The position numbers and the translations under genes were made by a program. Positions 31,948 to 52,048 of a stretch of 64,000 bases of DNA are shown piece after piece (position 1 is the first letter of the stretch; each line of letters starts with the position of its first letter). Below the pieces are notes generated by a model. That model saw only the letters and a program-made list of their open reading frames with translations, was not told the origin of the DNA and did not search any database. Origin of the DNA: an uncultured Eubacteriales bacterium (GTDB taxonomy: Bacteria > Bacillota > Clostridia > Lachnospirales > Lachnospiraceae). The DNA lies in assembly GCA_949283695.1 (NCBI GenBank), contig CASDTX010000038.1:1-64000 (forward strand), given 5' to 3'.

Positions 31948-33006
31948 ATGAGTTACGATATCAAAAGAAGCGTTTCCCTGTACAGTTATCAGGATGAATA
32001 TTATAACAAACAGCTTGATCTGGAAGGATGTCTCAGAGAGACGGCAAAGACCGGGGCGACTGGCGTGGAACTTCTTGCAGAGCAGATGATCCGCAGATTC
32101 CCCCTGCCCATCGAGGATGAGGCATTTCGTGAGCAGTGGTTCGAATGGCTGAAAAAATACAATCTTGAACCTTCCTGCTACGATGCGTTCTTAGAGAACC
32201 ACATTTATGACAACAGAATGCTCTCTCTCGGTGAGCAGATCAATATGATGAAGCGCGATATCCGGCTTGCATCCATGCTTGGCTTCAAGAACCTCCGCAC
32301 ACTGGTGTCCACACCGATGGATGTGATCGAGGGAAGTCTGGAGTATGCAGAGCAGATGGATGTGCGGATCGGGCTGGAGGTACACGCTCCTTTCTCACTG
32401 AATTCCGGATGGGCAGAGGGGTATATGGAGATGATCCGCCGCACAGGCACGAAATATTTCGGATTCATCCCGGATATGGGTATCTTCTGTAAGAATATCC
32501 CGGATGTTCTCAGGGACAAGGCCAGAAGGATGGGCGCTTCCGAGGAGTGCATCAAGATCGTTGACGACGCGTATGCACAGAGGATCGAGAAAGGCTTTGT
32601 GAAGATCAAATATGATCTGGATCTGGGGAAAGCCAACATGGAATACCGGATGGCGAACGGCATGAAAGAGATGATGGATGCAGTGAAAGCAGCAGGCGGC
32701 GGCCCGGCAGACATGATGTATGCAGGTTCCTCCTTTACCTACTCCTGGTCCGAGCCGCAGGACATCATCGACAACATTGACTACATCTATCATACCCATG
32801 CGAAGTTCTACAATGTAAACGAAGATTATGTTGAGACGGCGGTGGCGATACCGGAGGTGATCGATGCCTTCAAGAAAGCCGGATACAAGGGATACTTAAG
32901 TTCTGAGTACGAGGGCGGAGAGCATCTGAGAGCAGACATGGAAGTGGACAGCATCGAGCAGGTGAGACGCCATCAGGAAGCGATGAGAAGAGCGATCGAA
33001 GGCTGA
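31948..33006 (+). CDS. C-glycoside deglycosidase large (alpha) subunit, DgpC-like TIM barrel
   Basis: A 352-residue TIM barrel of the xylose isomerase/AP-endonuclease-2 superfamily. It starts with SYDIKRSVSLYSYQDEYY and shows likely metal ligands Glu in RIGLEVHAPFSL, Asp in FGFIPDMGIF, His in YIYHTHAKFYNV and Glu in YLSSEYEGGE. With the preceding small subunit it should form the Mn-dependent lyase that breaks the C-C bond of 3-oxo-C-glycosides to give the free aromatic aglycone and an unsaturated or oxo sugar. The pair is translated almost continuously. Substrates known for relatives include puerarin, orientin-type flavones and carminic acid; which one applies here cannot be told. Confidence 0.75.
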   Translation: MSYDIKRSVSLYSYQDEYYNKQLDLEGCLRETAKTGATGVELLAEQMIRRFPLPIEDEAFREQWFEWLKKYNLEPSCYDAFLENHIYDNRMLSLGEQINMMKRDIRLASMLGFKNLRTLVSTPMDVIEGSLEYAEQMDVRIGLEVHAPFSLNSGWAEGYMEMIRRTGTKYFGFIPDMGIFCKNIPDVLRDKARRMGASEECIKIVDDAYAQRIEKGFVKIKYDLDLGKANMEYRMANGMKEMMDAVKAAGGGPADMMYAGSSFTYSWSEPQDIIDNIDYIYHTHAKFYNVNEDYVETAVAIPEVIDAFKKAGYKGYLSSEYEGGEHLRADMEVDSIEQVRRHQEAMRRAIEG

Positions 33007-34169: not shown

Positions 34170-35621
34170 ATGGCAGATTATGAAACGCAGATCGTTGTCA
34201 TAGCGGCAGGACCGTCAGGATTGTCCGCGGCAGTTCAGGCGGCAGAAGACGGAGCGGAAGTCATCGTCCTGGAGAAAGCGGCAGCAGTCGGCGGCGCGGC
34301 GAACATGGGAATGGGTCCGCTTGGGATCGGAACAAAATATCAGAAACAGAACATGATCGATATCAGTGTTGAGAAAGCGTTCAACATGTTCATGGAGTAC
34401 ACCCACTACAATGTGGACGCCAGACTGGTGAAACGTTACTTCGAGCAGTCCGCGGAGACCATCGAGTGGCTCGAGGATCTGGGAGTCGAATTCGAGGGTG
34501 CGTTCCGCTACTTCCCGAAATCCGAGGCAACCTGGCATATCGTGAAGACAGATACGGGGATCGGACCGAGGGCGGCGTCATTTATGAACAAAGCACTGTA
34601 CGCAAGGGCGCAGGAACTGGGCGTACAGATTCTCCTGGAAACACCGGCGAAGAAGATCCTTATGGAAGACGGCAAAGTGGCAGGCGTTCTTGCCACAGAT
34701 AAGGACGGAAAAGAGATCCAGATCTCCTGTAAGGCAGCCATCATCTGTACCGGAGGAGCAGGGTGCAACAAGCAGTTCATCCTGGATGAGACGGGCTATA
34801 AGCACGGGGAGGATATGTTCAACTTCGCGATCCCGGGCATTATGGGCGACGGCCTGAGAATGGCATGGGAGGCAGGCGCTGACAAGCTTCCGGTCCGGAT
34901 CGAGCAGGCGGCAGCCATCGAAGGGACAGAGGACCTTCCGGGCAGCGTGGGGAACGTGATGAGCCAGCCAAACCTTCTGGTCAACTATCAGGGAAAGCGT
35001 GTGATGAACGAGGATCATATGCAGAATGCCACCTATCTCTCCAACGTGGTATCTCACCAGAAAGGCAGGGTATGCTTCAGCATCATTGATTCTTCCATCG
35101 CGAAATACTACATGAGAAACGGAGTGGATAATGTAAGTCTTGTGCGTCCGGATCCGGATGTGTCGGACTTCATAGACGGTGTGAAGATGGCACAGGAAAA
35201 CGGGAACGAAGGACTGTTCATTGCGGACAGCATTGAGGAACTGGCAGAGATGACAGGCATCGATGTGGACAATCTGGTGGATACCGTGGATGAATACAAT
35301 GACTTCTGTGACAGCACGGATGAGGAATTCTTCAAGCCGAAGAAATACTTAAGACCGCTGGTAAAAGCACCGTACTATGCGGCACGCATCCGTCCGGGCG
35401 GATACGGGACAGTAGGAGGCATCCGCATCAATGAAAACTGCGAGGCATGTGATAAGGAATTCGAACCTGTTCCGGGGCTGTACGCTGCCGGCGCGGACGC
35501 ATGCAATATCTATGACGACAGCTATATGTTCCTGCTTCCCGGAAACTCTATGGGCTTTGCGGTGAACACCGGGCGGATCGCCGGGATGAGCGCAGCGGAG
35601 TACGTAGAAGACGAAGACTGA
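34170..35621 (+). CDS. FAD-dependent reductase of the fumarate reductase flavoprotein family
   Basis: A 483-residue flavoprotein. The N-terminal dinucleotide motif is VVIAAGPSGLSAAVQAA, with Ala instead of the first Gly. EVIVLEKAAAVGGAANMGMG, IICTGGAGCNKQF and the C-terminal RPGGYGTVGGIRI, then LLPGNSMGFAVNTGRIAG complete the FAD_binding_2 fold. There is no FMN, heme or Tat segment, so electrons must come from a soluble partner, plausibly the iron-sulfur pair encoded at 36948-40284. Relatives reduce activated C=C bonds or oxidise ketosteroids. In this context an enone of the aglycone is a good guess, without direct proof. Confidence 0.75.
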   Translation: MADYETQIVVIAAGPSGLSAAVQAAEDGAEVIVLEKAAAVGGAANMGMGPLGIGTKYQKQNMIDISVEKAFNMFMEYTHYNVDARLVKRYFEQSAETIEWLEDLGVEFEGAFRYFPKSEATWHIVKTDTGIGPRAASFMNKALYARAQELGVQILLETPAKKILMEDGKVAGVLATDKDGKEIQISCKAAIICTGGAGCNKQFILDETGYKHGEDMFNFAIPGIMGDGLRMAWEAGADKLPVRIEQAAAIEGTEDLPGSVGNVMSQPNLLVNYQGKRVMNEDHMQNATYLSNVVSHQKGRVCFSIIDSSIAKYYMRNGVDNVSLVRPDPDVSDFIDGVKMAQENGNEGLFIADSIEELAEMTGIDVDNLVDTVDEYNDFCDSTDEEFFKPKKYLRPLVKAPYYAARIRPGGYGTVGGIRINENCEACDKEFEPVPGLYAAGADACNIYDDSYMFLLPGNSMGFAVNTGRIAGMSAAEYVEDED

Positions 35622-35745: not shown

Positions 35746-36930
35746 ATGACAGAACAGAGACAGACGGAGAGATCCGTACGCATCCGCATCGCGGTGAGTG
35801 TGTTCCTCTCCGCGTTTGCCTTCGGCCTCAATATTACCGGCATTTCTCCGGTGCTTGGAGTGCTGAATGAAACATACAGTGAATATGGTACCAGCATGGT
35901 ACAGCTTCTGCAGACGCTTCCCTATCTTCTTCTGATCGGGGGATCTCTGATCATCGGATGGCTGACGACAAAATTGAGCAAAAAGAATATCACCCTTCTG
36001 GGCCTTCTGATCGTGGGCTGCTGCGGAGTCCTTCCGTTCTTTGCAGACAGCTTCGGGGCACTCTTTCTGGCCCGGCTGCTGATCGGGTTTGGCTTCGGCA
36101 TCATGAGCCCCATGAATACGGCCATCATCGCGGAGTTTTTCCCGCCTGAGGAACGGGCTTCCTATATGGGCCTTCATGTAGTGGGGATGGGCATCGGAAC
36201 AATGGCGGGAAACCTGTTGGGCGGAATGCTCGCGGGAATCGGATACCGGTGGTTCTATCTGGTGTATCTGATCGCTTTCGCGGCCATGATCGGCGTCAAA
36301 GGGGTACTGATTGAAACACCGCCTGTGAAACCGGCAGCATCCGGCAGCAGAAAACTGAACAAGATGGTGTTCGTGGTCTCATTTGCATCCTTTGCCCACA
36401 CGCTTTTTATCAATGCATACAACACGAATATCGGGATCTATATCATGCAGAATATCACAGACGATCCGTCCCTCACCGGCGTAGTGACTGCGGTGAATGC
36501 GGCGTTCGCGCTGCTGGTGGGCATGTTTTTCGCGAAGATTTCAGGGTTTTTCAAGACCTATACGCTGACGTTTTCCATCTTTGCCGCAGCCGCCGGATAT
36601 GCGGTGATCCTGTTCGTGCCGGGGATGGCCGGAGTCTATATGGCCAGCGCGCTGTGCGGAGTCTCGCTGAGCTGCTTTATGGCGATTGCATCTTACCTGA
36701 TCTCCATCTCGGTTGAGCAGGATGCAGTGGCGCAGGCCAGCGGCGTATTCTCTATCATCGGCGGGATCGGCGGCCTGATCGCTCCCATTGTATTAGGAGG
36801 CGCGGCCGGCGCGCTCGGAGGAAATACAGCGGTCAACCAGTTCCGGGTGTCATTAACAGGAATGGTGATCCTCGGCGCGGCGGCGCTGATCGCTGCATTC
36901 AGTAAGATCAAGGAAGAACAAAGAGCATGA
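35746..36930 (+). CDS. MFS transporter 1 of the catabolic locus
   Basis: A 394-residue major facilitator with 12 predicted transmembrane segments; FGLNITGISPVLGVLNETY opens it and RLLIGFGFGIMSPMNTAII marks helix 4. The loop 2-3 motif is GWLTTKLSKKN. It is paralogous to the carrier at 45151-46302, and each sits inside one block of the locus. Uptake of an aromatic compound or export of its product is likely. It ends 17 bases before the next gene; AAAGGAGG of that gene lies next to its stop. Confidence 0.8.
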   Translation: MTEQRQTERSVRIRIAVSVFLSAFAFGLNITGISPVLGVLNETYSEYGTSMVQLLQTLPYLLLIGGSLIIGWLTTKLSKKNITLLGLLIVGCCGVLPFFADSFGALFLARLLIGFGFGIMSPMNTAIIAEFFPPEERASYMGLHVVGMGIGTMAGNLLGGMLAGIGYRWFYLVYLIAFAAMIGVKGVLIETPPVKPAASGSRKLNKMVFVVSFASFAHTLFINAYNTNIGIYIMQNITDDPSLTGVVTAVNAAFALLVGMFFAKISGFFKTYTLTFSIFAAAAGYAVILFVPGMAGVYMASALCGVSLSCFMAIASYLISISVEQDAVAQASGVFSIIGGIGGLIAPIVLGGAAGALGGNTAVNQFRVSLTGMVILGAAALIAAFSKIKEEQRA

Positions 36931-36947
36931 TAAAGGAGGTTATTGTT

Positions 36948-39062
36948 ATGGCGAAGATTACAATTGACGGAGTCTGTCTGGAGGTTCCGGAGAACAAGAA
37001 TGTGCTGGAATGCGCTCTGGACGCCGGGATCTACATTCCCCACCTCTGCCACCACAAGGATTTAAGCCCGCTGGGTTCCTGCCGCATGTGCGTGGTAGAA
37101 GTGGAAGGCCAGGAAGGGGTGACCACATCCTGCACACTCAAAGCAAAGGACGGCATGGTGATCCGTACCAAGACGCCGGAGCTGGATCGTCTGAGAATGC
37201 TGGCCCTGGAGCTTCTGCTCACCGGCCATCCGGAGGACTGCTCCACTTGTCCGAAATACGGGAACTGCGAACTGCAGACCCTGATCCAGTACATCGGACC
37301 GAAGACAGGACGGCTGAAAATGCGGACAAAAGGATTCCGTCCCCAGGAGAACAATCCGCTGCTGCTGCATGATATGAACCGCTGTGTTCTCTGCGGCAGA
37401 TGCGTGCGCGCCTGCAATGAGCTGCGGGGCGTCAAGGTACTTCAGTATCAGAAGAAGGATCTGGAGACTTATGTAGGAACTTTACATAACAAACTGCTCA
37501 AAGATGCGGACTGCCGTTTTTGCGGAGCGTGTGCGGAAGTCTGCCCCACAGGGACCATACGCGATAAGATCATCCATACAGAAGTGAAGAGAGAGGACGC
37601 AGCCGTGCCCTGCCGCCACGCCTGTCCGGCCCATACCGATGTTCCCCGCTATATCCGTCATATCAAAAACGGGGAATACGACGAGGCGGCAGCTGTGATC
37701 AGGGAGAAAGTGCCCTTCCCCAAGGCTCTGGGCTACATCTGTACTCACGTCTGCGAACTGGAATGTAAGCGCAGGGAGGTCAGCGAGGCCATGTCCATCC
37801 GCAATATCAAGCGCTATGCCGCGGATCACGATACAGGATCCTGCTGGAGAGAAAAAGGAAAGCAGCTGGCAGACACCGGCAGGAAAGTCTGCGTGGTCGG
37901 TGGAGGCCCGGCAGGCCTGACAGCCGCTTACTACCTGCGCAAGCAGGGCCATGATGTAACTCTGAAAGAAGCACTCCCCACTGTCGGCGGAATGATGGCA
38001 TACGGGATCCCGGCTTACCGTCTCCCGCGGGAGATCATCGCCGAGGAAGCTGCGGTGATTGAGGAACAGGGCGTGAAGATCGAAGTCAACACCAGGGTGG
38101 AGAAGCCGGCGGAACTGCTCCAGGAGTACGATGCAGTGCTGATGACCATCGGCGGCCATAAGGGCGTCCGGCTCCCCATGGAGGGATGTGATCTGGAAGG
38201 CGTGATCTTAAATGCGGATTTCCTGCGCAGCGCGAGCATGGGCAAGGAGACCGGCATCGGAAAGCGGATCATCGTCCTCGGAGGCGGCAATGTTGCCTTT
38301 GACTGTGCCCGCACGGCCAGGAGACTGGGGGCAGAGGAGATCCATCTGGCGTGTCTGGAGGCCAGAGATGTGATGACCGCGGATGAGGAAGAGATCATCC
38401 AGGCGCAGGAGGAAGGCATCTTTGTCCACCCGGCTCAGACCTTTGAGCGGATCACAGGGGACGATCATGTCACCGGCGTGGATTTCATGAATGTCAGATC
38501 CTTCTCCTTTGATGAGAACCGCAGGGCGGTCATTGAGAAAGAGGAAGGCTCCGAACACCATATTGATGCGGACACGGTGATCTTCGCCGTAGGCCAGAGA
38601 CCGGACATCACAGAGGAAGCAGGACTGGAACTGGGAAGAGGAAACAGCATCGCAGTCAGAGACATGGAGAAGGACAAGAGGACATCCGTGGAAGGGATCT
38701 TCGCGGCCGGCGACGCGATCTACGGGACGAAATCCGTGATTATGGCCATCGAATCCGGACGTGAGGCGGCAAGTCAGATCGACAGGTACTTAGGCGGCGA
38801 CGGGGATCTCTCGGAAGTCCTGGCTCCGGTACAGAAACCGGATCCGTATATCGGGCAGTGTCCGGGATTCGGATACCAGGAGAGAAAAGAGCCGAAAATC
38901 GATGCGCCGGAAGACAGATGCGCAGGCTTTGATCTGTTCGACCACGGGATCTGCGACGCCGATATCTGTGCGGAAGCAGGAAGATGTCTTCAGTGCGATC
39001 TGCGGCTGCAGATCTCCAGACCGCGCCTGTGGGGCGATTTTACAGAGAGCAGGGAGGCGTAG
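36948..39062 (+). CDS. NuoG/GltD-type iron-sulfur flavoprotein (NAD(P)H oxidoreductase)
   Basis: A 704-residue fusion. Residues 1-75 form a 2Fe-2S ferredoxin (HLCHHKDLSPLGSCRMCVVE). At about 80-120 lies the NuoG-type His/Cys cluster (HPEDCSTCPKYGNCELQ). Two 4Fe-4S motifs follow (CVLCGRCVRACNE, CRFCGACAEVCPTGT). From about 215 it continues as a GltD-like domain: CRHACPAHTDVPRYI, FAD-binding VCVVGGGPAGLTAAYYLRKQ, NAD(P)-binding IIVLGGGNVAFDCARTA and the FAD closing motif GIFAAGDAIYG. It should take hydride from NAD(P)H and pass electrons through its clusters. With the following gene it likely feeds the flavin reductases of this locus; electron bifurcation is conceivable. Confidence 0.82.
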   Translation: MAKITIDGVCLEVPENKNVLECALDAGIYIPHLCHHKDLSPLGSCRMCVVEVEGQEGVTTSCTLKAKDGMVIRTKTPELDRLRMLALELLLTGHPEDCSTCPKYGNCELQTLIQYIGPKTGRLKMRTKGFRPQENNPLLLHDMNRCVLCGRCVRACNELRGVKVLQYQKKDLETYVGTLHNKLLKDADCRFCGACAEVCPTGTIRDKIIHTEVKREDAAVPCRHACPAHTDVPRYIRHIKNGEYDEAAAVIREKVPFPKALGYICTHVCELECKRREVSEAMSIRNIKRYAADHDTGSCWREKGKQLADTGRKVCVVGGGPAGLTAAYYLRKQGHDVTLKEALPTVGGMMAYGIPAYRLPREIIAEEAAVIEEQGVKIEVNTRVEKPAELLQEYDAVLMTIGGHKGVRLPMEGCDLEGVILNADFLRSASMGKETGIGKRIIVLGGGNVAFDCARTARRLGAEEIHLACLEARDVMTADEEEIIQAQEEGIFVHPAQTFERITGDDHVTGVDFMNVRSFSFDENRRAVIEKEEGSEHHIDADTVIFAVGQRPDITEEAGLELGRGNSIAVRDMEKDKRTSVEGIFAAGDAIYGTKSVIMAIESGREAASQIDRYLGGDGDLSEVLAPVQKPDPYIGQCPGFGYQERKEPKIDAPEDRCAGFDLFDHGICDADICAEAGRCLQCDLRLQISRPRLWGDFTESREA

Positions 39063-39066
39063 AAGG

Positions 39067-40284
39067 ATGAATGCTTTAGAGAATGCAAAGAAAATGAGCA
39101 GGGAAGAAGTACTGGATCAGATCCGGAACAGCGGCCTGCAGGAATACGGCCTCTGCGCCGGACCGCTGGCGGACCGTATCGAAGCGGCGAAAGAGGAATG
39201 CCTGGAAGAAGGCAAAGAGCCGGGGGCGGCAGCAGCGCTGAACAATGCAGACACGGAGAAAGTGCTGCTCAGCCTGCTGAAAACAGAACCGGAGAAAGTC
39301 CTGGAAGGGATCGCTGCCGCAGCGTATGTTATGGGCGCTGAGAAGAAGTATCTCTATGTTCCCGAAGACGCAGCCGCGCAGAGAGAAGGTCTGATGGAAG
39401 AACTGAAGGATAAGGCAGAGGCTTACGGCGTGGAGATCATAGAGGGGCTTGTAAATGTGCGGGAGCGCAAAGGATGTCTCCTTATGCATATGGTGACTGC
39501 AGCTGAACTTGCCAATCTGCTTGCGGGAGAAGCGGAAGAAGGCGTGTATGTATCGGTCAACGGCGGAGCGCTCAGGAAAGTGCCGGCAGAGCAGAAGATC
39601 TCAGAACTGGAAGGGATCGGGGATACGGCCGGGGCAAAAGGATTCCTCATCGGTTACGAGTACCACGGACCGGAGGCGGCGGATCTGACAGTGGGGGAAG
39701 CCAATGCAGAGAACGGCGTCATCCGCACGGTCACAGACAAGGACTGCATCGTCAGTCAGACCGAGAACGTGCTGATGAGATCCAGGAAGCAGAGCTGCGG
39801 GAAATGCGTATTCTGCCGGGAAGGGCTTATCCAGCTTCAGTATATGAACAAAGAGATCACAGAAGGAAGAGGAAAGGCGGAGTATCCGGAACTGATCAAG
39901 GAGATCGGCGAGGCGATGACGTTCTCCGCTCCGTGCAGCATGGGGCTTAATTCCTCCCGGATCGCGCTGTCTGCGCTGGAGAAGTTTGAGAGTGAGTATA
40001 CTGCTCACATCCGGAAAAAGAAATGTCCGGCAGGGGTATGTTTCTCCCAGGAGACGATCTATATCGATCCGAAGAAATGCAGCGGATGCGGGGAGTGTAT
40101 GGACGTATGTCCGAAAGATTGTATTGAAGGAAAGGCGAAGTACATCCATATGATCGATGGATTTGACTGCGATCAGTGCGGCAAATGCATCGAAGTATGC
40201 GAGGAGGAAGCGATCATAAAGACATCCGGCAAGGTGCCCAAGCTTCCGAACCGGCTGACGAAGGTGGGAAGGTTCCGGCGCTAG
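39067..40284 (+). CDS. NuoF-like iron-sulfur protein without the FMN/NADH domain
   Basis: A 405-residue protein. Its middle and C-terminal part resemble NuoF: a 4Fe-4S site SCGKCVFCREGLIQLQ with the fourth Cys in SAPCSMGLNSS, then two ferredoxin-type clusters CSGCGECMDVCPKDC and CDQCGKCIEVCEEEA. The N-terminal glycine-rich NADH and FMN sites of true NuoF are absent; instead there are about 200 residues of helical, Ala/Glu-rich sequence. It is therefore an electron conduit, not an NADH dehydrogenase. It begins 4 bases after the NuoG/GltD-like gene, surely its complex partner. Confidence 0.8.
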   Translation: MNALENAKKMSREEVLDQIRNSGLQEYGLCAGPLADRIEAAKEECLEEGKEPGAAAALNNADTEKVLLSLLKTEPEKVLEGIAAAAYVMGAEKKYLYVPEDAAAQREGLMEELKDKAEAYGVEIIEGLVNVRERKGCLLMHMVTAAELANLLAGEAEEGVYVSVNGGALRKVPAEQKISELEGIGDTAGAKGFLIGYEYHGPEAADLTVGEANAENGVIRTVTDKDCIVSQTENVLMRSRKQSCGKCVFCREGLIQLQYMNKEITEGRGKAEYPELIKEIGEAMTFSAPCSMGLNSSRIALSALEKFESEYTAHIRKKKCPAGVCFSQETIYIDPKKCSGCGECMDVCPKDCIEGKAKYIHMIDGFDCDQCGKCIEVCEEEAIIKTSGKVPKLPNRLTKVGRFRR

Positions 40285-40298
40285 CGTAAACTCTGGGA

Positions 40299-40676
40299 TC
40301 ATTCTGACAGAGCGATGGCATAAGCGCCGGCCAGGTCTGTGTCGTAGGTAAGGGAGATCAGGATACGATGGATCCCCTTCTCCGCGGCCAGACGCGCGGC
40401 ATTGCCGTGGAGAGTGACAGTGGGCTGCCCGTTTTCATTTTCCAGAATTTCGATCTCGTTGAGCCGGACCGCGTTGCCGTTTACATTCAGGGCTTTAAAG
40501 ACCGCTTCCTTTCCGGAAAAGCGGGTGGCATAGCTGTTGAGCGGAACAGGGCGGGATTCGATCAGCCGGATCTCGGCGGGCGTATAGGTCTTGCGGACAA
40601 AGGGACCGTCCGGGTCCGATACGCCCTCCGCGATCTGAGAGAGATATAAAATATCAGTTCCGATCCCATAGATCAT
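40299..40676 (-). CDS. acpS: Holo-[acyl-carrier-protein] synthase
   Basis: A 125-residue AcpS, which transfers the phosphopantetheine arm of CoA to an ACP serine. The metal-binding Asp is in IYGIGTDILYL and the Glu in ATRFSGKEAVFKAL; the end AYAIALSE is normal. I chose the ATG at 40676, where GIGTDI begins, with AAAGGAA before it; the longer frame to 40991 is antisense to the next gene. It is oriented against its neighbours, between the two halves of the locus, and a free-standing acyl carrier protein gene lies 2 kb away. It may be dedicated to that carrier. Confidence 0.88.
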   Translation of the reverse strand: MIYGIGTDILYLSQIAEGVSDPDGPFVRKTYTPAEIRLIESRPVPLNSYATRFSGKEAVFKALNVNGNAVRLNEIEILENENGQPTVTLHGNAARLAAEKGIHRILISLTYDTDLAGAYAIALSE

Positions 40677-40755
40677 AGCAGTTCCTTTCCTCTCCGGCAT
40701 CCCTGACTGACAGGGCAGAGCCGGAGATATACAAAAGATGTATTTCATAGATATT

Positions 40756-40784
40756 ACTATACCAAAAATGCAGTCTTCGGACAA
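40756..40784 (-). promoter_or_regulatory. Putative acpS promoter
   Basis: On the minus strand TTGTCC (40784-40779), 17 bases, TATAGT (40761-40756). The divergent CocE-like gene starts at 40828, so the two genes share this control region. Confidence 0.4.
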
Positions 40785-40827
40785 TGCGCGTACCATTTTA
40801 AAATAAAAACACAGGAGGAAAACGAAC

Positions 40828-42570
40828 GTGGCAGAAGCAGAAAAAATATTGAAGACCGTTGATATGGACGGGGAGCAGGTGGAGATCTGGATGACCAAGA
40901 TGATGTCCCCCTGTACAAAGGAAGAGTTCGAGGCCATGTCACTGGAAGAGAGAGAACATGCGAAGATCCAGCCGGCTCTCAACCAGCGCACCTACAGTCC
41001 GGAGGAGGGGATCATCTGTATGCAGGATGTGCCGATCACCATGCGGGACGGCGCGGTGATCTACGCAGATATTTACAAACCGGAAGCAGAAGGGAAATAT
41101 CCGCTCATCATTTCCTGGAGCTTTTATGGAAAACGTCCCTTTGAAGGACAGGCCGAGTGGCAGATTATGGGTGTTCCGCCGCACACAGTATCCGATATGT
41201 CCAAGTTCGAGAGCCCGGATCCGGGATACTGGTGCCGTCACGGATATGCCATCGCCAATGTGGATCCGAGAGGGATCGGTCATTCCGACGGTGATTTCGT
41301 GCAGTTCGGAACACAGGATGGAAAAGACGGATACGACTTTATCGAGTGGGCGGCGCAGCAGGACTGGTGCAATGGACGCTGCGGGCTTGCAGGAAACAGC
41401 TGTGTGGCCATGACGCAGTGGAGGATCGCAGCCCAGCAGCCGCCGCATCTGACCTGTATCGCACCGTGGGAGTCCACAACTGATATGTACAGAGAGTCTC
41501 TGTGTGAGGGCGGCATTCCGGCGAAGACATTCGTTGCCTTTGTCATGAGGGAGGCCTGCGGTCCCAATTATATCGACAACACACCGATGAATCTGGAGAA
41601 ATATCCTTTCGTCAACTGTACCTACTGGAAAGACAAAGAGCCGGATTTCTCCAAGGTAAAGATCCCGGTATACCAGACCGCGTGCTGGAACCATTTCCAT
41701 CTGCGCGGGTCCATCAACGCGTTCCGCAAATGCAAGTCCCGACGCAAATGGCTCCGGGCTCACCGTAATTTTGAGTGGCCGGACGCATACAGCAATGAGA
41801 ATATCCAGGATCTGGAGAAGTTCTATGCCAGGTATCTGAAGCTTGAGAGGAACGGCTGGGAGCTGACGCCAAAGGTCCGTATTGAAGTGCAGGACACCGG
41901 AGAGTTCAATTATCAGACCAACCGTCCGGAGGAGGCGTTCCCGCTCAAGCGCACGAAATATGAGAAACTGTACCTCAACGCTGCGGACAATTCCATGCAG
42001 ACAGAGCCGGTGAGCGAGGCGGCGAAGGCAGTGTACGACAGCCAGACCGGAGAAGTGTGCTTTGACTATAGATTCGAGGAGGACACAGAACTGACTGGCT
42101 ACCTGAAACTGCGCCTTTACGTGGCAGCGGAGAGCTACAACGATATGGATCTTTTCATCAATGTGCAGAAATTAAGCACAACGGGAGAATTCCTGCCTAT
42201 CACGCTGTTCGGAGAAGCGCATCCGGGGGTATGGGGCAAGATGCGTGTCTCCAGAAGGAAGCTGGATGAAAAGCTGTCCACAGACTACTGCCCGGTGCAG
42301 GCTCACACATGCGAGGAGAAACTTGAGCCTGGTCAGATCGTACCGGTGGATATCGAGATCGTTCCTACCAGCAGGTTCTTCCATAAAGGACAGCAGATCC
42401 GAGTGCAGATCGCAGGACGCTACATCCGCGGAGACTGGTTCGAGCCGCTGACATGGGATACAGACAACAAAGGGAACCATATCATCTATACCGGCGGGGA
42501 ATACGAGTCATACCTGCAGATCCCGGTGATCCCGCCCAAATTCCAGGATGGGGATATCATTATCCGTTAG
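40828..42570 (+). CDS. CocE/NonD-family hydrolase
   Basis: A 580-residue alpha/beta hydrolase with the two-domain layout of cocaine esterase/X-Pro peptidase. Core features are DGAVIYADIYKPEA, the DPRGIGHSDGDF stretch, and the nucleophile elbow CGLAGNSCVAMTQW with Ser as nucleophile. The position usually holding Asp (GWYD) reads ACWNHFHLRGSINAF, and the His region reads RAHRNFEWPD; a C-terminal jelly roll (from about 380) ends the protein. This WNHFHLRG subfamily is common near aromatic-degradation genes. It probably opens an ester or a ring-derived diketone or lactone. The GTG start has AGGAGG before it. It leads the second block of the locus. Confidence 0.78.
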   Translation: MAEAEKILKTVDMDGEQVEIWMTKMMSPCTKEEFEAMSLEEREHAKIQPALNQRTYSPEEGIICMQDVPITMRDGAVIYADIYKPEAEGKYPLIISWSFYGKRPFEGQAEWQIMGVPPHTVSDMSKFESPDPGYWCRHGYAIANVDPRGIGHSDGDFVQFGTQDGKDGYDFIEWAAQQDWCNGRCGLAGNSCVAMTQWRIAAQQPPHLTCIAPWESTTDMYRESLCEGGIPAKTFVAFVMREACGPNYIDNTPMNLEKYPFVNCTYWKDKEPDFSKVKIPVYQTACWNHFHLRGSINAFRKCKSRRKWLRAHRNFEWPDAYSNENIQDLEKFYARYLKLERNGWELTPKVRIEVQDTGEFNYQTNRPEEAFPLKRTKYEKLYLNAADNSMQTEPVSEAAKAVYDSQTGEVCFDYRFEEDTELTGYLKLRLYVAAESYNDMDLFINVQKLSTTGEFLPITLFGEAHPGVWGKMRVSRRKLDEKLSTDYCPVQAHTCEEKLEPGQIVPVDIEIVPTSRFFHKGQQIRVQIAGRYIRGDWFEPLTWDTDNKGNHIIYTGGEYESYLQIPVIPPKFQDGDIIIR

Positions 42571-42604
42571 GAGCAAAGCTAGAAGAGAAAAAGGAGAGAC
42601 AAAA

Positions 42605-42844
42605 ATGAGAGAAGACGTTTTAAAAAAGATCATTGAGAAGGCAAGCAAGATTTGGAATGTAGCTGAGGCGGAATTAAGCGAAGAGACTGCATTTGCCTCC
42701 CTGAACCCGAAATCCGTGCACTATTCACAGATGACCACATACCTGGAAGATGAGTTTGACGCGGAAGTGCCGTATCTGAACTTCAAACGCTGCAAGACAT
42801 TCGGCGAGGCAGCAGATTATGTTGCGGAGCTTCTGGACGAGTAG
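42605..42844 (+). CDS. Stand-alone acyl carrier protein with unusual attachment site
   Basis: A 79-residue four-helix ACP-like protein, very acidic at the C-terminus. Aligning it with fatty-acid ACP places Ser37 of LNPKSVHYSQMTTYLEDEF at the phosphopantetheine serine; the usual Asp before it is Lys, and DSL becomes KSV. The rest (YLEDEFDAEVPYLNFKRCKT) fits the ACP fold. It stands between a hydrolase and an acyl-phosphate-forming enzyme, far from any fatty-acid or polyketide gene, and an acpS gene lies nearby. It probably carries an acyl intermediate of the catabolic pathway. The AAAAAGGAG site is strong, suggesting high expression. Confidence 0.78.
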   Translation: MREDVLKKIIEKASKIWNVAEAELSEETAFASLNPKSVHYSQMTTYLEDEFDAEVPYLNFKRCKTFGEAADYVAELLDE

Positions 42845-42867
42845 AGAATCTGCTTAAGCGCATAAAA

Positions 42868-42915
42868 ACGAAAAGGGACAGCCCGGCTTTCTGAAAGAGG
42901 TCTGTCCCTTTTCGT
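42868..42915 (+). terminator. Strong stem-loop between ACP and Pta-like genes
   Basis: ACGAAAAGGGACAG and CTGTCCCTTTTCGT form a perfect 14-bp stem. A 14-base palindrome, GGCGCTTAAGCGCC (42930-42943), follows. They could partly terminate or process the message so that the acyl carrier protein is made in excess. Confidence 0.6.
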
Positions 42916-42987
42916 ATCGGCGTACAGAAGGCGCTTAAGCGCCGGGATACAAAGTAAAATGCACTAAGGTGAGAAAGGACTGCGGAT

Positions 42988-43989
42988 ATGAATACATTTA
43001 TCAGGACAATGACAGAAAAAGCAAAACTCGCGCCCAAGCGCGTGGCGTTCGCGGAGGCGGGAAACATCGATATCCTGCGGACCGCGCAGGAGACGGCGGC
43101 ATCGGGGATCGGATTCCCCGTGCTGCTGGGGCAGCGGGAGACCATTGAAGCTCTGGCAGGGGAGAACGGTATTTCTACAGAAGGATTTACGTATTTTGAC
43201 TATACGGATGAAGCAAACCGACTGGCCCTGGCTGAAGAGTATACTGCCCGGTATGAAGACTTTTCGGCGAAAGCGGTGGCCAGAAAGACGAAAGATCCGC
43301 TGCGCTGTGCGATGTTCCTTCTGAAACTGCACAGAGCGGACTGCGTGGCAGCAGGAAAAGAGTATTCTACAGGAGATGTGATCTTTGAGGCCATCAGCAT
43401 CATTGGGATGCAGGAGGGCGTGGAGAGCGTATCCAGTCTGGGGATCGCGGACATCCCGGGATTTGAGGGGCCGCAGGGAAGTATGCTGGGCCTGGCGGAC
43501 TGCGCCATCAACGCTCAGCCGGATGCCAAAGATCTGGCGGGGATCGCGATCTCATCCGCGGACACGGCGAAGAAACTTCTGGACTGGGAGCCAAGAGTGG
43601 CTATGCTGGCATTTTCTACCTGCGGAAGTTCAGAGCATGAAAGCCTGGAAGTGATCAACGAGGCCGTGGAGCTTGTGCGGAAGATGCGCCCGGATATCAA
43701 AGTAGACGGAGAATTTCAGCTTGACTCCGCGATCATTCCGGCTGTGGCCGCACGCAAAGTCAGACGTGAGAGCGAGGTGGCAGGAAAGGCCAATATCCTG
43801 ATCTTCCCCAATCTCCATGCGGGAAATATTGGGGTGAAGCTGATCCAGATCTTCGGACATGCCAACGCTTACGGCCCGGTACTTCAGGGATTTGCCCAGC
43901 CGGTATGCGATTTCTCAAGGAGTGCACCGGTAGAAGAGATGCTGGGAAATGTGGCAATGCTGGTGATCCGTGCTGCGGCAGAGGATTAG
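42988..43989 (+). CDS. Phosphate acyltransferase (Pta/Ptb family)
   Basis: A 333-residue enzyme of the phosphotransacetylase family, which exchanges an acyl group between a thiol carrier and phosphate. The conserved C-terminal region FSTCGSSEHESLEVINEA, VDGEFQLDSAIIPAVAARKV, NILIFPNLHAGNIGVKL and GPVLQGFAQPVCDFSRSA is intact. Length suits Pta/Ptb. Sitting directly behind an ACP gene and 25 bases before a butyrate-kinase homolog, it probably makes an acyl phosphate for ATP synthesis. Whether the donor is acyl-CoA, as in known members, or acyl-ACP is open. Confidence 0.83.
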   Translation: MNTFIRTMTEKAKLAPKRVAFAEAGNIDILRTAQETAASGIGFPVLLGQRETIEALAGENGISTEGFTYFDYTDEANRLALAEEYTARYEDFSAKAVARKTKDPLRCAMFLLKLHRADCVAAGKEYSTGDVIFEAISIIGMQEGVESVSSLGIADIPGFEGPQGSMLGLADCAINAQPDAKDLAGIAISSADTAKKLLDWEPRVAMLAFSTCGSSEHESLEVINEAVELVRKMRPDIKVDGEFQLDSAIIPAVAARKVRRESEVAGKANILIFPNLHAGNIGVKLIQIFGHANAYGPVLQGFAQPVCDFSRSAPVEEMLGNVAMLVIRAAAED

Positions 43990-44014
43990 AACTGATAAGA
44001 AAGAGGAAAGAAAG

Positions 44015-45154
44015 ATGAAACCATACAAGATATTTACGATCAATCCGGGATCCACATCAACGAAGATCGCTCTGTTTGAGGGCGAAGAAAAGGTGTTTTC
44101 CGCCAACGTCAGCCATGATGCTAAGATCCTCGCGCAGTTTAAGACGCCCAATGAACAGCGCCCTTACCGGGAGGAAACCATCCGGGCGCTGCTGGAAGAG
44201 AACGGGATCTCCATGGACGGTCTGGACGCCTGCGTGGGACGGGGCGGCGGCCTTCTGTCCATGGAAGGAGGGACTTATGAGATCGACGATCTGATCCTGA
44301 ATCACTCTTCGGAGTGCGCGAACGGTGTTCAGCACCCGGCCAATCTGGGACCGGGACTGGCGAAAGAATTCGCCGACCGGTACGGGGCGAAAGCCTATGT
44401 GGTCAACCCTCCGGATGTGGACGAGCTTCAGGATCTGGCAAGGATGACGGGGATCAAAGGCGTTTATCGGGTGATCCACCTGCATGCTCTTAATTTAAAA
44501 GAAACAGCAATCCGACATGCCGCATCCATGGGAAAGGCGTATGAGGACTGTAACTTCATCGTCTGCCACATCGGCGGGGGCATATCCGTATCTGCCCACA
44601 GAAAAGGCAGGATGATCGATGGGTTCGATATTGTGGGCGGAGAGGGCCCTATGGCACCGACGCGCTGCGGAAGTGTGGCTGCGGCAGATCTTCTCCGCTA
44701 CTGCGAGGGAAAAGATCTCAGAGAAGTAAAGAAGCTCTGCACGAAGAACGGAGGCTTTGTCAGCCACACCGGGATCTCAGACGCTCTGGAGCTGACAAAG
44801 CGGGCTTCGGCGGGCGATAAGTATGCCGGGATGCTGTGGAACACCATGATCTATCAGATCGGCAAATGCATCGGTTCTATGGCCGTGGTTCTGGAAGGGC
44901 ATGTTGACGGGATCCTGCTTGGCGGCGGAATGGTGTACAATGAAGAACTGGTCCGGAAGCTGGAAGACACCTGCGGCTGGATCGCTCCAGTTACTGCCTA
45001 TCCGGGTGAATTCGAGATGGAGGCCATGGCAGCGGGAGCGCAGCGTGTGCTCTCCGGCAAGGAGACGGCGAAGAAATATCCAGGCGTCAGCCGCTTTCAG
45101 GGGTTTGACTTTGAGAAGCAGGAAAATCAGACAGGAAGGGAGAGGGAGCGTTGA
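44015..45154 (+). CDS. buk: Butyrate kinase-family acyl kinase
   Basis: A 379-residue acid kinase of the acetokinase/butyrate kinase family that turns an acyl phosphate plus ADP into the free acid and ATP. Phosphate-binding loop ILTINPGSTSTK-like FTINPGSTSTKIALFEG, the middle ANLGPGLAKEFADRYGA, CHIGGGISVSAHRKGRMID and the C-terminal GILLGGGMVYN are all present. Members accept butyrate, branched and sometimes aromatic acids. It works with the preceding acyltransferase to conserve energy from the pathway product. Its stop overlaps the start of the next gene by 4 bases. Confidence 0.88.
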   Translation: MKPYKIFTINPGSTSTKIALFEGEEKVFSANVSHDAKILAQFKTPNEQRPYREETIRALLEENGISMDGLDACVGRGGGLLSMEGGTYEIDDLILNHSSECANGVQHPANLGPGLAKEFADRYGAKAYVVNPPDVDELQDLARMTGIKGVYRVIHLHALNLKETAIRHAASMGKAYEDCNFIVCHIGGGISVSAHRKGRMIDGFDIVGGEGPMAPTRCGSVAAADLLRYCEGKDLREVKKLCTKNGGFVSHTGISDALELTKRASAGDKYAGMLWNTMIYQIGKCIGSMAVVLEGHVDGILLGGGMVYNEELVRKLEDTCGWIAPVTAYPGEFEMEAMAAGAQRVLSGKETAKKYPGVSRFQGFDFEKQENQTGRERER

Positions 45155-46302
45155 GCAGTGCGAAGAAACTAAAGGTCATCATCACGATCATATGTATTTC
45201 ATTTATCCAGGGGCTGCAGTTCTGCGTGTCCCCGGTCCTGGGCCCCATCCAGGAGCATTATCCGGAGGCCGGAGTGAGCCTGGTGCAGATGCTGGTGACC
45301 GTGCCTACATTTCTCTCCATCGTGGTAGCGGTGATCTCAGGCTGGCTGGTGGTGAAGGTGAGCAAGAAAAAGATGCTCATCTTCTCGGGAGCAGTGGCGG
45401 GGATTACGGGTTTTCTTCCCTTTCTGGCAGATAATTTCTGGCTTCTGTTTGCCTCGAGGACACTGTACGGCGTGGCGCTGGGACTGTGCATCGCGCTCAA
45501 CACGGCTGTGGTGGCGGAATTTTTTGAAGGAAATGAGAGGGTACGTGTTATGGGGATCCAGGCGGCGAGCGTGGGAGCAGGAATGGTCCTGGTGACTACG
45601 CTGGGCGGCGTGCTGGGAGCCGGAGACTTCCGCAATGCCTACTATACGAACGTGATCGGCTTTATTGCCATGGTGCTGATCGCGTTCTGTTTGCCGGAGA
45701 CGGGCACCGTGAAGGTGGAGAAGAACGAGAAGATCGAACTGAACAGGACGGTGTTCACTACAGCTTTCCTCGGTGTCCTGGAGATGCTCTTTCTGATCAC
45801 ATTCTCCACCAATATCGCCCTGCATTTAAGCGGCGGCCTGGCGGGGAGTACTACCGTGTCAGGGAATCTGACAGGGATCTTCTCCGCTGCGCAGATCGTG
45901 ATCGGGCTGGTGTTGGGGACGGTGACGAAGATCACGAAGAAGTATACGCTTCCCGCAGCTATGCTATGCTTCAGTGCGGGCGCAGTGCTTCTGATCCTGT
46001 TCCCGTCCAATTACGTGATGCTTATGATCGGCGCGGTATTCTGCGGATTTTCACAGGGAATGTTCATCCCCACAGCTATGGTTGATGTGTCCAATGCTGT
46101 GACTCCGGCATCTACGGCGATGGCGGCGGCCTGCATGACCTGTGGGAACTGCTTCGGACAGCTGATCTCGCCTACCGTGATGAACACGGCGGCAAAGGCG
46201 GTGTTCGGCACAGTGACAACGACGAACGTATATATCCTGGCAGCGGCCGGGATGACCATATCTGCGCTGGCGGTGATTGCGGCAAAGGCGCGGAAGAAAT
46301 AA
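45151..46302 (+). CDS. MFS transporter 2 of the catabolic locus
   Basis: A 383-residue, 12-helix carrier related to the one at 35746-36930. It shows FIQGLQFCVSPVLGPIQEHY in helix 1, GWLVVKVSKKKM in loop 2-3 and LYGVALGLCIALNTAVVAEF in helix 4. The TTG start overlaps the butyrate kinase stop (TTGA), with AGGGAGAGGGAG before it, so translation is coupled to the kinase. This suggests export of the acid end product or proton-coupled uptake of the substrate. Confidence 0.78.
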   Translation: MSSAKKLKVIITIICISFIQGLQFCVSPVLGPIQEHYPEAGVSLVQMLVTVPTFLSIVVAVISGWLVVKVSKKKMLIFSGAVAGITGFLPFLADNFWLLFASRTLYGVALGLCIALNTAVVAEFFEGNERVRVMGIQAASVGAGMVLVTTLGGVLGAGDFRNAYYTNVIGFIAMVLIAFCLPETGTVKVEKNEKIELNRTVFTTAFLGVLEMLFLITFSTNIALHLSGGLAGSTTVSGNLTGIFSAAQIVIGLVLGTVTKITKKYTLPAAMLCFSAGAVLLILFPSNYVMLMIGAVFCGFSQGMFIPTAMVDVSNAVTPASTAMAAACMTCGNCFGQLISPTVMNTAAKAVFGTVTTTNVYILAAAGMTISALAVIAAKARKK

Positions 46303-46323: not shown

Positions 46324-48294
46324 ATGAGAGCAAGAAGCTGCAAAGGAAAAGAAAAATACCCTCATCTTTTTTCCCCGCTCCGCATCGGGAATATCAGGAT
46401 GAAAAACAGGATCATCGCGGCGCCCACAAGCCCAAGCATGATCACGGCAGAGGGGCACTTCACCCCGGAGATGACCGCCTATCTGGAAGAAAAGGCAATG
46501 GGCGGCGCGGCAGTCGTGACTTACGGAGAGGCGATCGTGCACTCCGCTACAGGGAAGTCTCACAATAAGCAGCTACAGCTGGATTCTTTCGGCGTAAAGC
46601 AGGGAATGGCGCAGACGGCGCGGGCCATCCACAACGCAGGCGCATACGCCAACATCCAGCTCTCCCACGGCGGGAAATACGGCGGGCTGACCAGTGTGGG
46701 CGGAGATCAGGACAAATGTGATACAGCATACGGCCCGAGCCATGAGATCACGCCTGTGGGGGAAGTGCAGGAGATGCCCAGGGAAATGATTCTGGAGATC
46801 GTGGAATCCTACAAAAAGAGCGCGAAGCTGTGCAGAGACTGCGGGTTTGATATGGTCCAGGTGCATGCGGCGCATGGCTGGCTGTTTTCCCAGTTCCTCT
46901 CTCCGGTGTTCAATCAGAGAAAGGATGAGTTCGGAGGAAGTCTGGAGAACAGGGCAAGGTTCCTCTTGATGGCTCTGGACGCGGTGAGAGAGGGCGCAGG
47001 CCCGGACTTCCCCATCGAGATCAGACTTTCGGGAGACGATCTGACAGAAAACGGCCTGGGGCTGGAGGACTGCGTGAAAGTGGCGCAGATGGCAGATGAT
47101 AAGGTGGACCTGATCAATGTCTCCTGCGGAAACCATGAAGACCCGGATATGTTCTGCCGCACACACCCATCTGCCTTTTACCCCCGTGGGGTCAACGTAT
47201 ATCTGGCGGCAGAGATTAAGAAACATGTGAAGACTCCGGTGGCCTGCGTGGGATCGCTGAACGACCCGGCACAGATGGAAGAGATCATTGCTTCCGGTCA
47301 GGCAGATGTGGTAGAGATCGGACGAGCTCTTCTGGCAGATCCTTATCTGCCGGACAAAGCGCTGCATGGATGCGCAGAGGATATTACACCATGTCTGAGA
47401 TGCTACGAATGCTTCGGGGAGACGGGAAAGAGTGAGACGGTGAAATGTTCAGTAAATCCTACGATGGGCCAGCAGCTTCCGGAGAAATATCCGCGGCAGG
47501 CGCCCAAACGGAGCAAACGGGTCCTGATTGTCGGCGGAGGTCCGGCCGGGATGCAGGCAGCTGTCACTGCGGCGAAAAGAGGACACAAAGTGACGCTTGC
47601 CGAACGCGGGGAACGTCTCGGCGGCAATCTGTACGCAGCAGGAGCTCCGTTTTTCAAGAAAGACATCGCTGACTTCTGTGAAGTGATGAAAAAGCGGGTG
47701 GAAAAGTCAGGGGCGGAGATCATTCTGAACACGGAAGTGACGCCAGAGTGGATCACGGAGTTTGATCCGGATGCTCTGATCATCGCAATCGGTTCCAGAG
47801 AGATAAAGCCCCTGATCAAAGGGTTGGACAGAGAGAATGTCGTCATGGCTGCCGAGGCTGAGCTTCATCCGGAGAAACTGGGAAGAAGAGTCGTCATCAT
47901 GGGCGGCGGACTGGTCGGCACGGAGGCAGCGGTCTCCTTTGCGCATGAAGGGAAGGAGTGTGCGGTGATAGAGATGAAAGACGCTGTGGCGTCCGATGCA
48001 AATTCATTCTACCGCGGCGGTCTGATGCCGGAAGTGGAGCAAGCGGCAAAGCTCTATGTGAATACAACGGTCAAAGAAGTTCTGGAAGACGGTGTGCTCT
48101 GTGAGCGGGAGGGAGAGACTTTTAAAGTAGAGGCAGATACCGTAGTATGTGCTTTGGGATACCGGGCGCCGTATGCAGAAGTGGATGCTCTTGGCGGGAC
48201 TGTGGATGAGACTTATATCATCGGAGACTGTACAAATGTGGGTCTGATCTATCACGCGGTGAACCAGGCATATTATACGGCGATGCGTTTATAA
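46324..48294 (+). CDS. NADH:flavin oxidoreductase (Old Yellow Enzyme / 2-enoate reductase type)
   Basis: A 656-residue FMN, FAD and iron-sulfur enzyme of the BaiCD/2,4-dienoyl-CoA reductase family. The N-terminal TIM barrel (about 1-370) has VQVHAAHGWLFSQFLSPVFN and FGGSLENRARF. The cluster motif is CLRCYECFGETGKSETVKC, where the first three Cys are spaced C-x2-C-x2-C instead of the usual C-x2-C-x3-C. The C-terminal half binds FAD and NAD (VLIVGGGPAGMQAAVTAAKR, VVIMGGGLVGTEAAVSFA, YIIGDCTNVG). It reduces activated C=C bonds; relatives act on cinnamate, flavones, daidzein and 3-oxo-delta-4 steroids. It ends the second block. Confidence 0.85.
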   Translation: MRARSCKGKEKYPHLFSPLRIGNIRMKNRIIAAPTSPSMITAEGHFTPEMTAYLEEKAMGGAAVVTYGEAIVHSATGKSHNKQLQLDSFGVKQGMAQTARAIHNAGAYANIQLSHGGKYGGLTSVGGDQDKCDTAYGPSHEITPVGEVQEMPREMILEIVESYKKSAKLCRDCGFDMVQVHAAHGWLFSQFLSPVFNQRKDEFGGSLENRARFLLMALDAVREGAGPDFPIEIRLSGDDLTENGLGLEDCVKVAQMADDKVDLINVSCGNHEDPDMFCRTHPSAFYPRGVNVYLAAEIKKHVKTPVACVGSLNDPAQMEEIIASGQADVVEIGRALLADPYLPDKALHGCAEDITPCLRCYECFGETGKSETVKCSVNPTMGQQLPEKYPRQAPKRSKRVLIVGGGPAGMQAAVTAAKRGHKVTLAERGERLGGNLYAAGAPFFKKDIADFCEVMKKRVEKSGAEIILNTEVTPEWITEFDPDALIIAIGSREIKPLIKGLDRENVVMAAEAELHPEKLGRRVVIMGGGLVGTEAAVSFAHEGKECAVIEMKDAVASDANSFYRGGLMPEVEQAAKLYVNTTVKEVLEDGVLCEREGETFKVEADTVVCALGYRAPYAEVDALGGTVDETYIIGDCTNVGLIYHAVNQAYYTAMRL

Positions 48295-48368: not shown

Positions 48369-48424
48369 AACTGATACCATAAAAATGCTGCAGCAGCATG
48401 GATGTTCATAAAAGGAGACGCAGT

Positions 48425-51085: not shown

Positions 51086-52048
51086 ATGAAAGTATTAGGA
51101 ATTTCTTTTGGAAGGAGAAACCAGAGAAGTGATGTCATGGTGAAAGAAGCTCTTTTCGCGGCAAAAGCAGCGGGCGCTGACGTGCAGTTCATCAATACGG
51201 TACGCATGGATATCGGACACTGCCGGGCATGTGACTACTGCAGCAGAATGCGCGACAAAGGCGAGACAGAGATCCACTGCTGCATGAAAGACGATTATCA
51301 CATCCTGGAAGAAGCCTGCCTCGAGGCGGACGGGATCATCATCGCAGCTCCGGTCTACGCGGTCGGCATCGTAGGACAGTTCAAGAACTTTGTAGACCGT
51401 TTCGGCCCCTCACACGACAGAGCCGCACTGCTCGAAGAGAACAAAAAGAGAAAAGCGGAAGGCAAACCGGAACTGGATCCGCGCTATTTCAAGGACCGCT
51501 ATACAGGATTTATTTCCGTGGGCGGAGCACAGACTCATAACTGGGTATCCCTCGGACTTCCGATGCTGGATCTTTTCAGCTTCTCATTCTGCATGAAATG
51601 CGTAGGCCATGTAGATGCTTATGATCAGGGAAGGACAGGCCATCCGCTGTTTGATCCCGCGCTTATGAAAAAATGTGCAGAACTTGGAACAGCAGTGGCA
51701 CAGTCTCTTGGAAAGCCGTATGATGAAGTGAACACATGGGTTGGAGACGAGGGCGTATGTCCGGTCTGCCATAATCCTCTCCTCAGCATGAACGGAACGA
51801 CGCATGTCGAGTGCCCGATCTGCGGGATCTGGGGCGAACTGTCCGTAGACGGGGATAAAGTCAGTGTGGAATGGTCCGAGGAAGAGATCGCACGGGCGAG
51901 AAACACGACCATCGGTATCTATGAGCATTACAACGAGATCCAGAATATGATCGAGGTCTGTGTGCCGAAACTCATCGCAAACAAAGACACGCTGCCCAAG
52001 ATGATGGAAAAGTATGAAAAATTTGAGGAAACCATCGAGAATATGTAA
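51086..52048 (+). CDS. Flavodoxin-fold NAD(P)H-dependent reductase with zinc-ribbon tail
   Basis: A 320-residue protein. The flavodoxin/FMN-reductase fold (residues about 1-215) starts MKVLGISFGRRNQRSDVMVK, carries a Cys-rich stretch HCRACDYCSRMRDKGETEIHC like iron-sulfur flavoproteins, and AAPVYAVGIVGQFKNFVDR around the FMN. A C-terminal ribbon has two CxxC pairs (VCPVCHN, CPICGIW), as in rubredoxin or zinc ribbons. It may hand electrons to the reductases of the locus or itself reduce a quinone-like aromatic. GGAGG stands 7 bases before the ATG. It is co-transcribed with the sugar symporter that follows. Confidence 0.75.
   Translation: MKVLGISFGRRNQRSDVMVKEALFAAKAAGADVQFINTVRMDIGHCRACDYCSRMRDKGETEIHCCMKDDYHILEEACLEADGIIIAAPVYAVGIVGQFKNFVDRFGPSHDRAALLEENKKRKAEGKPELDPRYFKDRYTGFISVGGAQTHNWVSLGLPMLDLFSFSFCMKCVGHVDAYDQGRTGHPLFDPALMKKCAELGTAVAQSLGKPYDEVNTWVGDEGVCPVCHNPLLSMNGTTHVECPICGIWGELSVDGDKVSVEWSEEEIARARNTTIGIYEHYNEIQNMIEVCVPKLIANKDTLPKMMEKYEKFEETIENM

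Follow-up and report, generated by a model that had tools for sequence, protein, structure and literature searches.

Textbook accounts present substrate-level phosphorylation from acyl thioesters as coenzyme A (CoA) chemistry. The described systems closest to the locus treated here are the Pta/Ack and Ptb/Buk enzyme pairs, the acyl carrier protein (ACP)-dependent enzyme PlsX, an acyl-ACP:phosphate acyltransferase that feeds phospholipid synthesis, and two enzymes of acylphloroglucinol metabolism. In the known pathway, phloretin hydrolase acts at the acylphloroglucinol step (excerpts of PMC10470551), and the Friedel-Crafts C-acylase PhlACB catalyzes a reversible, CoA-free acetyl transfer on phloroglucinol (excerpts of PMC6392133). 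The locus lies within a window of 64,000 nucleotides, positions 1 to 64,000 of contig CASDTX010000038.1 (assembly GCA_949283695.1) from an uncultured Eubacteriales bacterium assigned to the Lachnospiraceae. It brings together a CocE-type hydrolase, a stand-alone ACP, a Pta-family enzyme, a Buk-family kinase and an AcpS, and its sequence suggests, with a probability of roughly 0.6, a CoA-free, energy-conserving relay from acyl-ACP to ATP. The module consists of the following features.

40299..40676, minus strand: AcpS-type phosphopantetheinyl transferase (Pfam ACPS, 51 bits, cut-off 25)
40828..42570, plus strand: CocE/NonD-family alpha/beta hydrolase, proposed acyl-cleaving acyltransferase (Peptidase_S15/PepX_C; CocE_NonD, 207 bits, cut-off 66)
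42605..42844, plus strand: stand-alone ACP of 79 aa, presumed attachment residue Ser37 in a K-S motif (NCBIfam ACP model, fold model)
42868..42915, plus strand: RNA hairpin between the ACP and Pta genes, possible terminator or processing site (z-score -4.67 for 42848-42960)
42988..43989, plus strand: Pta-family phosphotransacylase without the contacts to the CoA 3'-phosphate and pyrophosphate (PTA_PTB, 288 bits; alignment)
44015..45154, plus strand: Buk-family acyl kinase (butyrate kinase, 375 bits, cut-off 289)

In the proposed relay, AcpS would place phosphopantetheine on Ser37 of the ACP. Following ring opening, CocE would attack an acyl bond of a polyphenol aglycone, the likeliest being the aryl-ketone C-C bond in an intermediate resembling phloretin, with an ester less likely, and the resulting acyl enzyme at Ser191 would pass its acyl group to the ACP thiol instead of to water; phloretin hydrolase would lose the bond energy at this step. 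The Pta-like enzyme, whose sequence shows the loss of CoA contacts, would then convert acyl-ACP and phosphate into acyl phosphate, from which the Buk-like kinase, judging by its family, would form ATP and a free acid. The initial annotation had described four co-directional genes with a neighboring acpS and without fatty acid or polyketide genes. The coordinates and families were confirmed, with CocE, ACP, Pta and Buk running in one direction and AcpS divergent alongside, and Pfam identified no fatty acid or polyketide gene among the 51 window open reading frames (ORFs) scanned, which are a subset of those in the window.

The choice of acyl donor is addressed most directly by residues of the Pta-family enzyme. 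The window protein scores 241 bits against the pta equivalog TIGR00651, under its cut-off of 311. Among 24 module Ptas, five of which are encoded at additional loci in the same genomes (L086-L089 and L091) and one more at L092, R133 and K90 (M. thermophila Pta numbering) are each kept in 0/24, and column 87, which falls in a gapped stretch, holds R in 2/24 and K in 4/24. The catalytic S309-R310 is present in all 24, as is an acid at position 316 (E in 23, D in one), and the module Pta loop is shorter than that of M. thermophila Pta by two residues in 22/24, by four in L088 and by one in L092. In contrast, R87, K90 and R133 are all retained in 21/21 housekeeping Ptas of the same genomes; this control comprised 22 rows, from which HK_L115 was dropped after it proved to be the module enzyme from the genome of L057. 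Seven further Ptas, five belonging to the thiolase type described below and two not (L130, L131), likewise lack R133; the Ptas of L124 and L126 were left out of this second set. Roles for R87 and R133 in M. thermophila Pta were reportedly established by Iyer and Ferry in 2001.

In the PTA domain of MaeB, the 3'-phosphate of CoA is in contact with R535 and K538 and its pyrophosphate with R581; the R535A and R535E substitutions each abolished acetyl-CoA binding, and a relative without these residues is CoA-insensitive (excerpts of PMC7902834). By the mapping used in this analysis, a constant offset of 448, these residues correspond to R87, K90 and R133. Because a Pta that takes its acyl group from ACP could dispense with holding CoA by its nucleotide end, loss of the CoA-phosphate contacts with retention of the catalytic residues agrees with acyl-ACP as the donor. 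The initial annotation's suggestion of such a donor is therefore supported by sequence, foremost by the divergence between module and housekeeping enzymes at R133. In G165, the genome of L057, the sole PTA_PTB match is of the module type and no housekeeping Pta was found in this bin, which may be incomplete.

The carrier protein is divergent. Its best NCBIfam ACP model gives an E-value of 2e-7 and 31 bits, under the cut-off of 66, and Pfam gives no match at 1e-3. The AlphaFold2 model has a mean predicted local distance difference test (pLDDT) score of 94.3 and contains a long helix that opens with Ser37 as its first residue; among the Foldseek matches listed, most are named acyl or peptidyl carrier proteins, the best TM score being 0.84 and the best E-value only 0.0018. 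As modeled, the window ACP is a real carrier fold with a serine at the start of helix 2. The presumed attachment serine is invariant in the 20 aligned sequences. An atypical KSV site had been noted initially; K-S is the same in every sequence, the third position is variable, and the D-S-L motif is not present in module ACPs, all 20 of which read K-S-x. The hairpin at 42868-42915, between the ACP and Pta genes, may make the amounts of carrier and downstream enzyme unequal.

Elsewhere, the same genome encodes a separate ACP, 32% identical to the module ACP, and another AcpS copy (C18:35470), so the ACP/AcpS pair of the module is an extra one and its AcpS is presumably dedicated to the module ACP. 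A role as a fatty acid or polyketide ACP was rejected on the basis of this separate ACP and of the lack of such genes among the scanned ORFs. The AcpS gene starts at 40676, which is not the start of its long ORF. GxDIL and FxxKEA are typical AcpS motifs, and the window protein carries both; counting it, they are found in 14/17 and 16/17 aligned proteins, respectively, the exceptions being L050, L092 and L054, where start choice may have cut the N-termini. An ACP profile matched 2/391 genomes of the class, the source genome included (E 1e-11), and the module is thus rare and patchy. A more distant ACP, 35% identical, is encoded in the genome of L059 (L093:8407-8695), with a carboxylesterase homologue on one side and a thiolase-like gene on the other.

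The window kinase passes the NCBIfam butyr_kinase cut-off. At L057, a full-length acetate kinase (486 bits) follows Pta in place of Buk, which implies that the step is kept and not one particular Buk lineage. In CocE, Ser191, the G-x-S nucleophile, and His312 are invariant in 18/18 alignment rows and align with those of 3ib3; the CocE of L091 is split across two frames, and its longer piece alone was aligned. The CocE structure model did no more than bear out the CocE-type matches.

Conservation was assessed by scanning genome contigs for CocE, which identified 30 loci: 23 in a clade of at least 48% identity (L038-L060), six at no more than 36% (L061, L063-L067), and L062 (72%), which is uninformative because its 4.3 kb contig ends inside CocE. 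For proteins taken from stop-to-stop frames, the start was set at the Met giving the length nearest that of the window protein. The flanking DNA reaches no farther than 10 kb per side and in many cases is shorter (the contig of L045 has 3.5 kb); the relatives were found by CocE and include several close kin and many metagenome bins. Across the 23 clade loci, which contain CocE by construction, the flanks contain the ACP gene in 19, the Pta gene in 17 and a kinase gene in 16 (counting by hand the acetate kinase of L057), with AcpS in 15 and all four in 14; none of the four was found in the flanking DNA of the six distant loci. The genomes of L046, L049 and L056 carry ACP elsewhere, bringing ACP to 22 of the 23 clade genomes. 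The remaining one, the genome of L058 (G166), has CocE, no ACP, no Buk, and Pta only as a sub-cut-off PTA_PTB match.

Gene order and strand differ among the loci; among the records named are Lachnospiraceae, Clostridium caldaquaticum, Atopobium fossor and a Thermoleophilia bin. Recurrence of the set in distant genomes indicates that it is not due to chance. Sequence distances were also compared as matrices: those of the four genes CocE, ACP, Pta and Buk correlate with one another at 0.73-0.89 and with that of housekeeping Pta at 0.35-0.39; the AcpS matrix correlates at 0.60-0.74 with the module genes and at 0.33 with housekeeping Pta (15-24 loci among module genes, 14-17 for housekeeping Pta). 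It was concluded that the set travels together and not with the species. Conservation of the five-gene set, proposed as a check at the outset, was found in other genomes: 14 of the 23 relatives have all five genes within the flanking DNA, and the random break-up that would have spoken against the initial reading was not found.

The window also contains the following genes around the module.

31540..31935, plus strand: C-glycoside deglycosidase beta subunit (PF19906, E 2.4e-40)
31948..33006, plus strand: xylose-isomerase-like TIM barrel adjoining the beta subunit, presumed deglycosidase alpha subunit
34170..35621, plus strand: FAD_binding_2 flavoprotein, found with CocE again in some relatives
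36927..39062, plus strand: NuoG/GltD-like iron-sulfur flavoprotein, found with the module again in some relatives
39064..40284, plus strand: NuoF-like iron-sulfur protein, found with the module again in some relatives
45151..46302, plus strand: MFS transporter, recurring in relatives; its ORF shares 4 bases with Buk
46324..48294, plus strand: OYE/2,4-dienoyl-CoA reductase type flavoenzyme, candidate enone reductase (BaiCD-like, under that model's cut-off; matches are NCR and dienoyl-CoA reductase)
51086..52048, plus strand: flavone reductase (FLR) homologue (PDB 7d38 match, residues 1-288, E 9.7e-39; 7D38 is FLR-chrysin)

Genes of the sugar oxidoreductase family are also present. An 829-aa protein at 48398-50887 combines AraC-type regulator domains with a GH39-like domain, and its relatives recur beside the module. 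Two 482-aa proteins on the minus strand (10446-11894 and 17550-18998) share a Cro/C1-type HTH_26 domain.

This setting, with its deglycosidase and FLR homologue and with phloroglucinol genes in relatives, points to flavonoids. At L055, the ACP-CocE-AcpS genes continue directly into genes of the cupin, SDR, 3-hydroxyacyl-CoA dehydrogenase, cyclase and BKACE families, the last four of which are families of the published phloroglucinol cluster (excerpts of PMC10470551). L135, a locus from another family, contains two CocE genes, an FLR homologue, a CoA-transferase pair, Buk, ACP, NuoG, NuoF and cupin genes, along with homologues of three of the four phloroglucinol genes; Pta is not on its 17.5 kb contig. 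The CoA-transferase pair of L135 (11575-12944) lies between the FLR homologue and Buk. L091 holds ACP, the frame-split CocE, Pta, Buk, a cupin and, at the contig end, the edge of a reductase homologue. A cyclohydrolase homologue occurs in 12 of these 26 genomes (partial in G165) versus 6/295 across the order, or 5/294 for the Fisher test once G623 was dropped because its gene is identical to, and placed as in, that of L055's genome, the genomes not being independent. An acyl group is left over when phloroglucinol is released from an acylphloroglucinol, and it would be the simplest source of acyl-ACP. Context supports an aglycone as the source of the acyl group; that its aryl-ketone bond in particular is cleaved is a tentative suggestion, with chances a little short of even. 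The phloretin hydrolase family (PF18089) has no match in the source genome. In another genome, a 33-residue match to it at G155:C137:22618-22716, toward the right end of L094, lies close to the module where the contig ends.

A search of the same genomes for Pta plus Buk revealed a second architecture at seven loci (L124-L129, L133), in genomes also carrying the CocE module. At L125:6985-11595, a thiolase-like protein, a zinc-ribbon protein (zf-ChsH2) and a 79-aa ACP recognized by Pfam are followed by Pta, an AcpS-like protein and Buk. Pta is found in 7/7 of these loci, Buk in 6/7 (not L129), an AcpS-like protein in three, and ACP in 6/7 (not L126), with its serine in an A-S motif. Among the protein starts compared, six match for the thiolase and five for the zinc-ribbon protein, the rest being placed by layout. 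The zinc-ribbon protein is here termed DUF35-type by analogy with PhlB, and the thiolase is similar to PhlC and to thiolases that are known to occur with partners of this kind. The thiolase was found in 0/391 class genomes, which is uninformative because no genome of that set is known to carry it. One carrier and kinase set combined with two acyl-cleaving enzymes that are unrelated to each other is what would be expected of an energy cassette. Whether ACP, AcpS, Pta and kinase might form a general CoA-free cassette, plugged into either CocE or a thiolase with a DUF35-type partner and harvesting ATP from polyphenol C-acyl bonds, is judged an even question.

Several observations weigh against the proposed relay. 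The place of the catalytic-triad Asp in CocE, which is assumed from cocaine esterase, is occupied by Asn, Ser or another residue, and another acid may serve; the predicted CocE model is moderate (pLDDT 75). CocE homologues 57% (G078) and 50% (G166) identical occur in genomes without the module ACP, so CocE chemistry need not depend on the ACP. Some loci are incomplete: L038 (93% CocE) has no Buk, one being found elsewhere beside the second architecture, L086 and L087 have ACP and Pta without an adjoining kinase and with CocE elsewhere, and L059 and L060 carry the core without AcpS and without a flavonoid gene among the scanned neighbors. The cyclohydrolase homologue was not found in the source genome (79% complete) nor in G146-G152, and phloroglucinol release is therefore not indicated there. 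Finally, the phloretin hydrolase family is present in 8/26 genomes, for which reason strict replacement of that enzyme by the module was rejected.

Three other explanations were considered. Pta and Buk can work in either direction and acyl transfer is within the scope of alpha/beta hydrolases, so the relay could run backwards, with Buk and Pta spending ATP to put an acid on ACP and CocE acylating a substrate for modification or detoxification. The relationship of the second-architecture thiolase to the C-acylase subunit PhlC would also suit this explanation, but the neighboring genes are catabolic (deglycosidase, FLR homologue and phloroglucinol degradation genes), and it is considered unlikely. 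Alternatively, Pta and Buk might use ordinary acyl-CoA from the phloroglucinol or butyrate end, while ACP and CocE act separately. CoA esters are the normal substrates of Pta and Buk, and ATP formation of this kind from phloroglucinol has been proposed for C. scatologenes (excerpts of PMC10470551); however, it is the module Ptas that have lost the CoA-phosphate contacts and the housekeeping enzymes that keep them, and ACP, Pta and Buk have correlated distances and are all missing from G166, which makes separate action quite unlikely. It is also conceivable, though improbable, that CocE is a plain ester hydrolase or acyl-ACP thioesterase and that the ACP carries an intermediate for flavoprotein reduction rather than for ATP formation. 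The solved CocE relatives are hydrolases, and FAD2, NuoG, NuoF and OYE recur in many loci, yet the flanks of L054, L057, L059 and L060 hold no such flavoprotein beyond trace scores and nevertheless contain ACP, Pta and kinase.

No description of an ACP-based module of this kind was found in searches of an open-access library, where the paper on PhlACB was the one result with a bearing on the question, and energy conservation through a dedicated carrier protein instead of CoA would be new. If the relay from acyl-ACP to ATP is correct, a dedicated carrier would capture the acyl group directly from a bulky aromatic, without need of CoA, and this would explain how gut anaerobes could gain energy at a step thought to be plain hydrolysis. 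A Pta without CoA contacts adjoining an ACP might also serve as a marker for finding more such systems.

The module can be compared with each of the described systems. PhlACB resembles the proposed relay in its CoA-free, reversible acyl transfer to and from phloroglucinol, and its PhlC subunit is related to the second-architecture thiolase, but the enzyme is not of CocE type, and the available excerpts mention no ACP, Pta or kinase (PMC6392133). Phloretin hydrolase (PF18089) occupies the same proposed pathway position as CocE, between ring opening and phloroglucinol; however, it belongs to another family and hydrolyzes without energy conservation. PlsX carries out the same half reaction as is proposed for the module Pta, from acyl-ACP to acyl phosphate, whereas the module protein belongs to PTA_PTB and has a kinase downstream. 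As in the Pta/Ack and Ptb/Buk systems, a Pta-family enzyme is paired with an acetokinase-family kinase and an acyl phosphate intermediate is expected; unlike in these systems, the module Pta lacks the CoA-phosphate contacts and is accompanied by an ACP and an AcpS that are presumably dedicated to the module.

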